Shown here piece after piece: positions 11,628-42,073 of a DNA stretch of 64,000 bases. A program made the translations under genes and the position numbers. The stretch is from contig CAMAVY010000001.1 in NCBI GenBank assembly GCA_945861675.1, forward strand, positions 1 through 64,000, given 5' to 3'. The notes beneath the pieces are model-generated. The model was not told where the DNA came from, made no database searches, and was given only the letters and a program-made list of their open reading frames with translations. Position 1 is the first letter of the stretch. Each line of letters opens with the position of its first letter. The DNA is from Klebsiella pneumoniae. GTDB taxonomy: Bacteria; Pseudomonadota; Gammaproteobacteria; Pseudomonadales; Azotimanducaceae.

Positions 11628-11860
11628 GTAGTGGCGGCATTTGCGCGCTGACCGCGGCCCGGCACTACCCCGATCGCTTGGCGCGCGTGCTGAGCCACTG
11701 CGGCTGATGCACCAACACTCGTCGTGAGCACGTGTTCCCGTATCTCGTGCGATCCGCGCCGCAAAAGTTCTTTCGGGAGTTTCTGCAGAGTGGCGCCAAC
11801 GATGGTGCCACTGTGTTCGGCAACAGGCCGTTGAACCCCGCTGAGCGTCCGAGCCGCTAA
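11624..11860 (+). pseudogene. remnant of an enterochelin-esterase-like protein (C-terminal part, in-frame stop)
   Basis: One frame from 11624 to the TAA at 11858 reads SSGGICALTAARHYPDR, then LARVLSHCG, a TGA at 11705, then VFPYLVRSAPQK and FLQSGANDGATVFGN. These match in order the catalytic elbow (S-S-G-G) and the C-terminal blocks of Fes/enterochelin-esterase-like hydrolases, where LSHCGSF and a YPYLVR-type block are usual. The N-terminal two thirds are absent and replaced by the dienelactone hydrolase gene, whose stop overlaps the fragment by 4 bases. The reading frame has otherwise survived, so the decay looks recent. Recognition is from memory of the family, not a search. Confidence 0.65.
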
Positions 11861-39757: not shown

Positions 39758-39858
39758 TTGCGCTGAGCCATGAGCAGGGGGGCTGCGTTCAGCGTGCCAC
39801 GTCGTCAGGCACTTGGCGTGATGGCGTGATGGCGTGTTGGCGGCCGCAGGGTTTCGAA

Positions 39859-39889
39859 GGCTGAGTCCCGCCGTCCGCAGGACTCAGCC
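39859..39889. repeat. 10-bp perfect inverted repeat upstream of the HNH gene
   Basis: GGCTGAGTCC (39859-39868) and GGACTCAGCC (39880-39889) pair perfectly around an 11-base loop. It lies in the 359-base non-coding gap 39758-40116. Confidence 0.9.
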
Positions 39890-39905
39890 TGCGTCTAGCC
39901 TTGCG

Positions 39906-39970
39906 CTCGCTGCCCGGCGCCAAGTGTTCGCTATGCCGGGCTGTGCCCGCCCTTGACCCCGGGCAGCGAG
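39906..39970. repeat. 12-bp perfect inverted repeat with nested alternative hairpins
   Basis: CTCGCTGCCCGG (39906-39917) is perfectly complementary to CCGGGCAGCGAG (39959-39970). Inside, GCCCGGC (39912-39918) can alternatively pair with GCCGGGC (39935-39941), and CGGGC-TGT-GCCCG (39937-39949) forms a third hairpin. The three pairings compete, as in attenuator-like or transposon-end structures. No coding frame explains them. Confidence 0.88.
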
Positions 39971-40083
39971 CACCGAACGATGAGCCCGAACTGCGACCAC
40001 ATGATGCCATTCTGCTTGGATGGCGTGCACCACTGTTAGGTGGTTAGAGCAATGAATTCGTTTATGGATTGTTATTGTCCTGG

Positions 40084-40103
40084 TACTGTATGGCTATACA
40101 GTC
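40084..40103. promoter_or_regulatory. LexA (SOS) box upstream of the HNH endonuclease gene
   Basis: TACTGTATGGCTATACAGTC contains CTGT-N8-ACAG (40086-40101) with an A/T-rich core and a perfect seven-base dyad ACTGTAT/ATACAGT. This is the LexA operator consensus of gamma- and betaproteobacteria. It ends 16 bases before the preferred start codon, where LexA would block transcription. Confidence 0.82.
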
Positions 40104-40116
40104 GAGCGGTCAGATC

Positions 40117-41514
40117 ATGAATCAGTGCATTGTTTTTGAAGGGCTCGAAGCCCAGTCCGTATGTGCCATCGAACAGGAACTGCTGGCACTCAACGCCAAT
40201 CTGAATGCCGCGACCTATCGCTTCCTGGTGCTGGCCCGTGAGTTCGACCGGCGCATGGCCTGGGCCGATTGGGGCATGCGCTCCATGGCGCACTGGCTTG
40301 GCTGGAAGTGCGGCATTGGCCCCGTCGCGGCGCGGGAGCAGGTGCGGGTGGCGCATGCGTTGGATGGTTTGCCTGATACGGCAGCTGCGTTCTCGTGTGG
40401 GCGCATCAGCTATTCGAAGGTGCGTGCCCTATCCCGTGTGGCAACTGGTGAGACCGAAGGCTTTTTCCTGAACATCGCTGAGCACGGCACTGCAGGACAC
40501 CTTGAACGCATCGTGCGGTATGCCAAGGGCGGATTGGCACTGGATGACCCACAACGCCTGCAGGCCATGGTCGAGAACATTGCATGCGACTTGTACTACG
40601 ACGATGACGGCATGCTGGTGCTGCGCGCGCGACTCATGCCGGACGATGGGGCTCGACTGGTCGCGGCCTTGAATGCCATGCAGAAGCATGTCCCGTCGGT
40701 GCCGGTCTCAGTTCGGCGTGCCATGGCGTTGGCGGCCGTTGCAGAGGCGGCTGTGGGTGCTGAGCCCAAGGGCTCGGTGCCTGAGATCGTCGTGCATGTC
40801 CGCGCGCCGATTGCTGAGATCGACGCGCGACATGCAGGTGAAGGGCAACGTGCCGGTGGCGCGGGACACACCAGTGATGCGCGACACCCCGGCGATGAGA
40901 CAGCGCATCGGACCGTTGACGATTCAGCGGAAGCATCTGCCTACATCGACGGCGGTGCAGCCATTCCCCGTGCAACGCTGGAACGGCTTTGCTGCGATGC
41001 GGGGGTGGTGCAGTTGATTGAAGGCGAACACGGCGAGCCGCTATCCATTGGACGGCGCAGCCGGATTGTTCCCCCGGCAATCCGACGGGCCATGAACGCG
41101 CGCGATCAGGGCTGCCGCTTCCCAGGCTGCACCCATGAGTACTTCCTGCACGCCCACCACATCCGGCACTGGTCGAGGCAGGGCGAGACATCGCTTAAGA
41201 ACCTCGTGACGCTTTGCTCCTTCCACCACACCTTGCTGCATGAAGGCGGCTATTCAGTGCGTCGGCTGATGGATGGCTGCTACGAGTTCAAGACGCCCAC
41301 CGGACGTGTGATTCCGGCATCGGCGCCTGCTATGCACGGCGGAGTGGAAGACCTGCGTGTTGCCAACCAGCTGCACGGGGTGAATGTTTCCGCAGAAACA
41401 GGCGCATCGCAGTGGGATGGCAGCCCGGTCGACTACCACCATGTGATGTTCACGTTCTTTCAGTACGGCGAACTGGCCAAGCACCACGCTGCACACCACG
41501 ACCATCGCGCGTGA
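40117..41514 (+). CDS. DUF222 and HNH endonuclease domain protein
   Basis: A 465-residue protein. Residues about 25-260 form the DUF222 (13E12-repeat) domain (MRSMAHWLGWKCGIGPVAA, ISYSKVRALSRVA). The C-terminal nuclease has CRFPGC, HAHHIRHW and LVTLCSFHHTLLHEG: Cys pairs for zinc and the His-Asn-His catalytic core. The family is common in actinobacteria and some gammaproteobacteria; its biological role is unsettled, though nuclease and mobile-element roles are proposed. ATG 40117 is chosen because ATG 40090 lies within the LexA site. It is flanked by strong inverted repeats on both sides. Confidence 0.93.
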   Translation: MNQCIVFEGLEAQSVCAIEQELLALNANLNAATYRFLVLAREFDRRMAWADWGMRSMAHWLGWKCGIGPVAAREQVRVAHALDGLPDTAAAFSCGRISYSKVRALSRVATGETEGFFLNIAEHGTAGHLERIVRYAKGGLALDDPQRLQAMVENIACDLYYDDDGMLVLRARLMPDDGARLVAALNAMQKHVPSVPVSVRRAMALAAVAEAAVGAEPKGSVPEIVVHVRAPIAEIDARHAGEGQRAGGAGHTSDARHPGDETAHRTVDDSAEASAYIDGGAAIPRATLERLCCDAGVVQLIEGEHGEPLSIGRRSRIVPPAIRRAMNARDQGCRFPGCTHEYFLHAHHIRHWSRQGETSLKNLVTLCSFHHTLLHEGGYSVRRLMDGCYEFKTPTGRVIPASAPAMHGGVEDLRVANQLHGVNVSAETGASQWDGSPVDYHHVMFTFFQYGELAKHHAAHHDHRA

Positions 41515-42073
41515 CGTAAGGACTCGCACAACGCTTCCGCCACTACCACGTCAATCAACACGCAGACCACCACGCATGACGTCGCCGCGCATGTCGTAGT
41601 CACCTGCAAATGCGTCTCGGCCCAAAACCAATCTGACCCCGCGACAGTTGGGGACATGCCCGCCGTCGCCGTGGCGCCATACACGCAGGCGGCGACGGCG
41701 GGTATGTCGGCGCAAGCCAAGCGCAACGTCACGGTCAGCCGGTAGCTGCTTGAGTCGCGAGCTCAATGAAAGAACTTCAAGTGCGCTTCGGTTGCGTTCA
41801 CGCGCAGCAGACTCGCGTCAGGCACGTAGATCCCGACGTACTTGTTCTTCTGCCGACATGCTGTGCGCTTGCCGATGTTGTGCTTCGGGCATGGCTCCCG
41901 AGTCACGGCGCCTTCGCCAACTACATGCGCGGTTTGGATGAGCGCCTCATCAGCGAGCCGACTTTCCACCATCCGGGTCACCCGGCTCGAGGCCGGCAAA
42001 GCGCCAACTGACTCGGCTTGTTTCGGCGGCGACAGCGGGTCGCCTGAGCGGCTGCACAAGAGCAGCAACGCGT
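41515..42073. other. non-coding stretch downstream of the HNH gene
   Basis: About 560 bases without a convincing gene. They hold the long inverted repeat at 41653-41708 (listed separately). A 104-codon minus frame 41763-42077 starts with GTG overlapping the next gene's stop as GTGA, but its composition is nondescript and no family is recognised. Confidence 0.5.
41653..41708. repeat. 18-bp inverted repeat with one mismatch, 20-base loop
   Basis: G-ACATGCCCGCCGTCGCC (41653-41670) is complementary to GGCGACGGCGGGTATGT-C (41691-41708) except for one G-T type wobble pair. The stem is GC-rich and would be very stable. There is no T-tract, so it is not an ordinary terminator. It lies 140 bases after the HNH gene stop. 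Confidence 0.88.

Follow-up and report, generated by a model that had tools for sequence, protein, structure and literature searches.

A LexA-type box and parS-like palindromes at DUF222-HNH genes point to a probable SOS-controlled nuclease family with a ParB-like DNA reader

The window, by which we mean the whole 64,000-nucleotide stretch of DNA that was analysed, carries a DUF222-HNH gene that is preceded by a 20-bp near-palindrome and lies within a dispersed repeat (Table 1). The reading frame is open from TTG 40069 to 41514, and the domain content named in the original prediction was borne out by Pfam matches above the cut-offs of both families (DUF222, E 5.7e-18; HNH, E 1.5e-6). Placement of the start at ATG 40117 was likewise supported by a paralogue (L005/L011) in which a stop codon falls between the box and the homologous ATG (MNQC...), which is therefore the sole usable start there. 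The HNH residues His347, His348, Asn362 and His371 are present in the window protein and invariant in 50 of 50 relatives. Pfam detects 11 DUF222 loci in the window's genome.

Table 1. Features of the DUF222-HNH locus in window coordinates, with the basis for each assignment.
Feature	Position	Strand	Basis
Dispersed repeat unit, about 1.9 kb, includes gene	39841..41758	+	BLAST against other genome copies, about 74-93% identity
Two hairpins, left end of repeat	39858..39971	.	DNA folding z -3.4; common to other copies
Predicted LexA operator (SOS box) TACTGTATGGCTATACAGTC	40084..40103	+	15 of 16 fixed positions of TACTGTAT-N4-ATACAGTA; upstream conservation
DUF222-HNH gene, 465 aa, start ATG 40117	40117..41514	+	Pfam DUF222 and HNH; start set by paralogues
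ParB/Noc-type DNA-binding domain (predicted), residues about 15-153	40159..40575	+	Structure model, fold search, HTH_ParB
Predicted recognition helix, residues 69-84	40321..40368	+	Helix in model; Arg73 at 40333-40335
HNH nuclease domain, residues about 329-376	41101..41244	+	Pfam HNH; catalytic residues intact
parS-like palindrome TGTTTCCGCAGAAACA, encodes VSAET	41385..41400	.	GTTTC-N4-GAAAC: 0.01 expected in window by chance
Long hairpin, right end of repeat	41653..41708	.	DNA folding z -3.3; common to other copies

The near-palindrome ends 13 bases before the start codon and contains the CTGT-N8-ACAG box that had been reported ahead of the gene (CTGTATGGCTATACAG, 40086-40101). The position given for that box held; the distance from its end to ATG 40117 is 15 bases, not the 16 first stated, and its core, ATGGCTAT, is not purely A/T as had been claimed. 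The plain CTGT-N8-ACAG pattern occurs twice in the 64-kb window against 0.84 expected, which is not significant, and this count was dropped as evidence. The second match (CTGTGTTCGGCAACAG, 11811-11826) has a poor core and is consistent with chance. Across the whole 4.88-Mb draft genome, the strict pattern TACTGTAT-N6-ACAG occurs 3 times and its reversed control 0 times, and each of the 3 sites is directly 5′ of a DUF222-HNH paralogue. Weaker forms of the box lie upstream of this genome's other DUF222 copies with an intact 5′ region; one copy (C44) has lost its 5′ end. Conservation upstream of orthologues, a check suggested with the original prediction, was found across 12 genomes: in 26 of the 27 DUF222 genes whose 5′ end is intact, a box close to the gene start agrees with the pattern at about 12 or more of its 16 fixed positions (the two frames of L059 merged into one, L056 included, and some of the genes being paralogues that are not fully independent). 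Of 1514 control windows drawn from these loci, none reached 12 positions.

Comparison with the genome's own LexA operator, suggested as a check at the same time, gave a consistent picture. The LexA encoded there combines a DNA-binding domain of the E. coli type (FRSANAAEEHL in the DNA-binding segment, FRSPNAAEEHL in E. coli) with an S24 domain; ahead of the lexA gene stands ACTGTACGTCTGATCAGT, which differs from CTGT-N8-ACAG at one position. In the same genome, CTGTACGTATATACAG (L045, about 2142-2157; contig C46, 20641-20656) adjoins a radical SAM gene that is apparently of the PA0069 type and likely an SOS gene. In a set of 12 genomes from the order, among them that of the window, the box pattern with up to 2 mismatches gave 2 to 6 sites per genome compared to 0 or 1 in the control. 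In a sample of sites searched regardless of gene, the box marks SOS genes elsewhere in related genomes: it precedes recA, lexA, imuA, an imuB-type polymerase gene, dnaE2 and an S24 peptidase gene of the UmuD/LexA type, as well as a PA0069-type gene and integron integrases. The recA operator was taken from G077, a genome of the same family; recA itself was not found in the window's draft genome, where a single weak match is possibly RadA. Because the box stands before genes such as recA, lexA, imuA, dnaE2 and the integron integrases, we take it to be the LexA operator, and the box upstream of DUF222-HNH genes is, as judged from sequence, the SOS box of these bacteria. The proposed SOS control of the nuclease is thereby supported by the LexA type, the box-bearing SOS genes and the conservation before orthologues. 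Integron-type integrase genes lie behind near-perfect LexA boxes at L080, L090 and L093 in the same genomes.

LexA control shared with recA, imuA and dnaE2 would also suit an ordinary repair nuclease of the SOS regulon, active in alternative mismatch repair or end processing, and a mismatch-repair role has been proposed for the M. tuberculosis 13E12 genes (PMC4181829); the palindromes described below would then be sites of another protein, or incidental. We consider this unlikely. The genes are patchy (13 of 295 genomes of the order) with many divergent copies per genome, unlike core repair, and the lineage-specific in-gene palindromes and the ParB-type domain would be left unexplained.

We take the 13E12 family to be DUF222. 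The 13E12 genes of M. tuberculosis are under LexA/SOS control (PMC4181829, PMC5005354), so this kind of regulation was already known; what is new is how widely it reaches. Box comparisons suggest that SOS control of DUF222-HNH genes extends to Gammaproteobacteria and, through other box types, to Myxococcota and Rhodococcus: GCTGAACATATGTTCAGC and a near copy are found right before the ATG of two Myxococcota DUF222-HNH genes (L162, L225), and CGAACGTACATTCGA before a Rhodococcus DUF222 gene. At five Rokubacteria loci (L171, L186, L224, L195, L243), an inverted repeat resembling GATCGCG-nn-GCGATCG is conserved about 75 bases 5′ of DUF222 genes and may be that phylum's SOS box.

Structure prediction gave a model of the whole protein with a pLDDT of 81, and a model of residues 18-141 alone with a pLDDT of 93 and a pTM of 0.85. 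In a Foldseek search of the isolated domain against the PDB, the best 19 matches were all ParB, Spo0J or Noc, including ParB-parS and Noc-NBS complexes, with probabilities up to 1.00 and TM-scores up to 0.65; the tightest fitted to 2 to 3 Å over 75 to 108 residues. Despite probabilities near 1, the E-values of these matches were not small (0.2-2), although we give weight to the fact that all of them point to one family. HTH_ParB was the sole second Pfam family to recur in more than 2 of 40 relatives, matching 13 of them (best E 2.7e-4) with scores below Pfam's cut-off. Alignment by hhalign to four ParB/Noc sequences was weak, yet above 200 shuffles, and a sequence search with the DUF222 N-domain profile against PDB chains gave no meaningful match, ParB being seen only by fold comparison and Pfam. 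Aligned by hand to C. crescentus ParB, DUF222 G-A-A-R73-E-K-V-R-V-A-x-x-L-x-x-L-P corresponds to G170-K-S-R173-S-H-V-A-N-T-M-R-L-L-A-L185-P186, and S98-Y-S-K-V-R103 to T199-A-G201-H-A-R204. In ParB, parS is contacted by R173, G201 and R204, the first two of which belong to the residues that determine specificity (PMC7383237). Arg73, which aligns with ParB Arg173, is invariant in 50 of 50 relatives, and Arg103, which aligns with Arg204, is kept in 49 of 50. These results predict a ParB/Noc-type DNA-binding domain in the N-terminal half of DUF222, a fold assignment that appears to be new to the literature. Two papers mention ParB together with a term beginning with "DUF222", which in one of them proved to be DUF2220. 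The ParB CTPase (ParB/Srx) domain is absent from the window protein, both by Pfam scan and in the structure model, so the protein would be a nuclease equipped with a ParB-type reader and not itself a ParB.

The peptide VSAET recurs at several places in translated relatives, and the DNA underlying it is the palindrome GTTTCCGCGGAAAC, often lengthened to ACGTTTCCGCGGAAACGT. In DUF222 genes found by HMM, the valine codon is GTT in 20 of 21 cases (background 17%) and the glutamate codon GAA in 20 of 21 (background 46%), and elsewhere the same palindromic DNA is read in other frames, as TFPRKR or RFRGNV. In some lineages the palindrome differs but is just as symmetric: ACGATTCCGCGGAATCGT occurs twice per gene in three copies of genome G181, ACGCAACCGCGGTTGCGT and ACGCATCACGTGATGCGT are further forms, and AAGCGTTCCCGCGGGAACGCTT is found in the gene of a phage record. 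Codon choice, alternative frames and symmetric variants together ruled out a mere peptide motif. Perfect palindromes of at least 18 bp numbered 13 in 42.8 kb (41 genes), whereas the 52.2 kb of flanking DNA had none and synonymous-codon shuffling gave an expectation of 0.37; these statistics cover loci from the DUF222 search, those found through the palindrome being biased for its presence, and some palindrome-bearing copies are paralogues, so that events are fewer than counts. The in-gene sites cluster in two groups upstream of the HNH core and again just after it. All four GTTTCNGCNGAAAC sites in the window's genome are within DUF222 genes. In many DUF222 genes, among them the Rhodococcus gene and several paralogues of the gene in the window, palindromes are degenerate or missing.

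All palindrome types share a G at position 1 and a C at position 5 of the half-site. In the parS half-site, GTTTCAC, position 1 is the base read by ParB residue 173 (PMC7383237). The palindromes share their arms, GTTTC...GAAAC, with parS, and in one variant the core, CACGTG, also equals that of parS. An attempt to match palindrome type to residues near Arg73 was abandoned, there being too few types. Given the invariant arginine at the ParB-173 position and the parS-like palindromes in the protein's own gene, we think it quite likely that the DUF222-HNH protein binds them. GTTTCCGCGGAAAC was not found in the literature searched, and the in-gene parS-like palindromes of DUF222-HNH genes appear to be previously unreported.

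DUF222 was detected in 12 of 295 genomes of the order and, with a custom profile, in a thirteenth (G107); the first, loose genome search missed at least one DUF222 genome, and negatives are thus approximate. The 16-mer CGTTTCCGCGGAAACG is present in 10 of the 295 genomes, 9 of which carry DUF222-HNH, that is, in 9 of the 13 gene-bearing genomes (Fisher p 2e-13 over the 295). A phylum-wide search of 398 genomes added few DUF222 genomes, and no relative was confirmed when named genomes were scanned with a peptide pattern. Among 84,980 species genomes, the 18-mer palindrome occurs in at least 116 stretches, where about four are estimated by chance; those listed come from Gammaproteobacteria, Acidobacteria, Gemmatimonadota, Rokubacteria, Myxococcota and others. 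Among the matches listed, 61 of 130 copies of the 18-mer are inside DUF222-HNH ORFs and about half are outside, and many of the outside copies inspected are intergenic, some within short repeated contexts. Palindromes in short repeated intergenic contexts were observed at L204, L212, L146, L158, L161 and L189, such contexts being found in an Acidobacteria MAG, an Acidimicrobiaceae MAG, a gammaproteobacterial MAG (NP59) and others.

Arms equal to those of parS, with the parS core in one variant, could also mean that a separate cellular ParB/Noc-like protein reads the palindromes and that DUF222-HNH genes carry them, for example as a way of staying near partition complexes. The palindrome tracks the presence of DUF222-HNH, however, and its variants differ among DUF222 genes of one genome (L060 versus L069 in G181), which fits gene-encoded readers better than a common one. 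We regard a separate reader as quite improbable.

The gene belongs to a repeat whose structure fits a mobile or converting element; in the draft genome, several contigs end within copies of it. At one locus (L034, 949-1339, contig C52) a copy has both repeat ends but lacks the intervening gene, and the arrangement resembles a non-autonomous or empty cassette. By a logic like that of RAYT/REP, the protein could mobilise palindromic repeats together with its own gene, with SOS induction raising its activity. The dispersed 1.9-kb unit with hairpins at both ends, the gene-less copy, the repeated contexts around solo sites and the occurrence of the same palindrome in several phyla would all accord with such mobilisation, whereas an HNH nuclease in place of a Y1/HUH transposase would not, and searches of the 1.9-kb repeat found no sharp ends, target-site duplication or empty site, the ends being insufficiently sharp for a duplication test. 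Mobilisation of this kind is doubtful but deserves some weight, and it is partly compatible with the site-specific nuclease that we favour.

Phage defence had been among the roles suggested in the original prediction, and an HNH nuclease under stress control, with a palindrome nearly absent from viral contigs (1 stretch), might be expected of such a system. By estimate, however, the scarce viral matches are at about chance level, and the putative sites sit in the host's own genes. PADLOC matched the window protein to no family at E up to 1, and a relative gave only marginal matches to the HNH core. The suggestion is therefore unsupported, and we consider a defence role very improbable. Members of the family are very rare in phages (1 of 50,697 records) and plasmids (4 of 72,556), and among viral contigs no relative could be confirmed; a phage, plasmid or viral origin was rejected. 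On one Sphingomonas plasmid (L276, 1816-4310), genes for Vsr, an HNH protein and a cytosine methyltransferase are adjacent, unlike the context in the window.

The explanation that we find probable on balance is an SOS-controlled, probably site-specific nuclease family with a ParB-like reader and recognition sites in its own gene. LexA bound to the box would repress the gene and DNA damage would lift repression, the parts tested here being box conservation and LexA type. Structure prediction and conservation suggest a protein in which a helix-turn-helix reader of the ParB/Noc type is fused to an HNH nuclease. A dimer may bind palindromes composed of two half-sites, G-NNN-C-CG or G-NNN-C-AC (GTTTCCGCGGAAAC and its lineage variants), and these predicted targets are close to the ParB site parS (GTTTCACGTGAAAC). 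Since putative sites are located within the coding sequence of the nuclease itself and, in a few copies, between genes, the enzyme would, after damage, nick or cut mainly copies of its own gene and related solo sites. Cutting could feed homologous recombination or gene conversion and the copying of the repeat family, or it could limit the enzyme's own expression. Cutting of its own gene seems costly, which is a point against this explanation. More tentatively, and in a form that could well be wrong, DUF222-HNH genes may be SOS-triggered self-targeting nuclease genes, each with a lineage-cognate in-gene palindrome, in which cutting drives recombination, diversification or spread across phyla; if so, they would represent a new kind of element.

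To our knowledge, DUF222-HNH (13E12) genes, which occur in several phyla and often in many copies, have hitherto been without an assigned fold, DNA target or role. The family now gains a predicted DNA-reading fold, a concrete, lineage-specific candidate DNA site and a probable regulatory switch, which appears with different box types in at least three phyla, and a large unexplained gene family becomes directly testable. If the protein reads the palindromes, the family would offer a natural series of diversified ParB-type readers, joined to a nuclease, on which the evolution of DNA specificity could be studied, and it would be a clear case of a gene that bears the target of its own nuclease.

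The M. tuberculosis 13E12 genes (e.g. Rv0515, Rv1702c, Rv3074, Rv3776) are similarly multi-copy HNH genes of the LexA regulon (PMC4181829, PMC5005354), but they have their own SOS-box type, and no palindrome, ParB fold or DNA target was reported for them in the literature searched. With ParB/Spo0J and Noc, and their sites parS and NBS, DUF222-HNH proteins share the predicted DNA-binding fold, Arg73 and Arg103 as counterparts of Arg173 and Arg204, and the GTTTC...GAAAC arms; in contrast, they lack the CTPase domain, carry an HNH nuclease and in most lineages are associated with the core CCGCGG. Like HNH homing endonucleases, the DUF222-HNH protein is an HNH nuclease that is encoded by a possibly selfish gene and is likely to have a specific DNA site. 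Homing genes interrupt, and hence destroy, their target, whereas the putative DUF222-HNH palindromes stay intact inside the gene. As in RAYT/REP systems, the gene is tied to palindromes that are also dispersed as intergenic copies, but in place of a Y1/HUH (TnpA-type) transposase Pfam finds only DUF222 and HNH, and the palindromes are within coding sequence. Finally, the SOS-controlled integron integrases of these genomes are likewise DNA-processing enzymes whose genes follow this LexA box, although they are tyrosine recombinases with attC sites.
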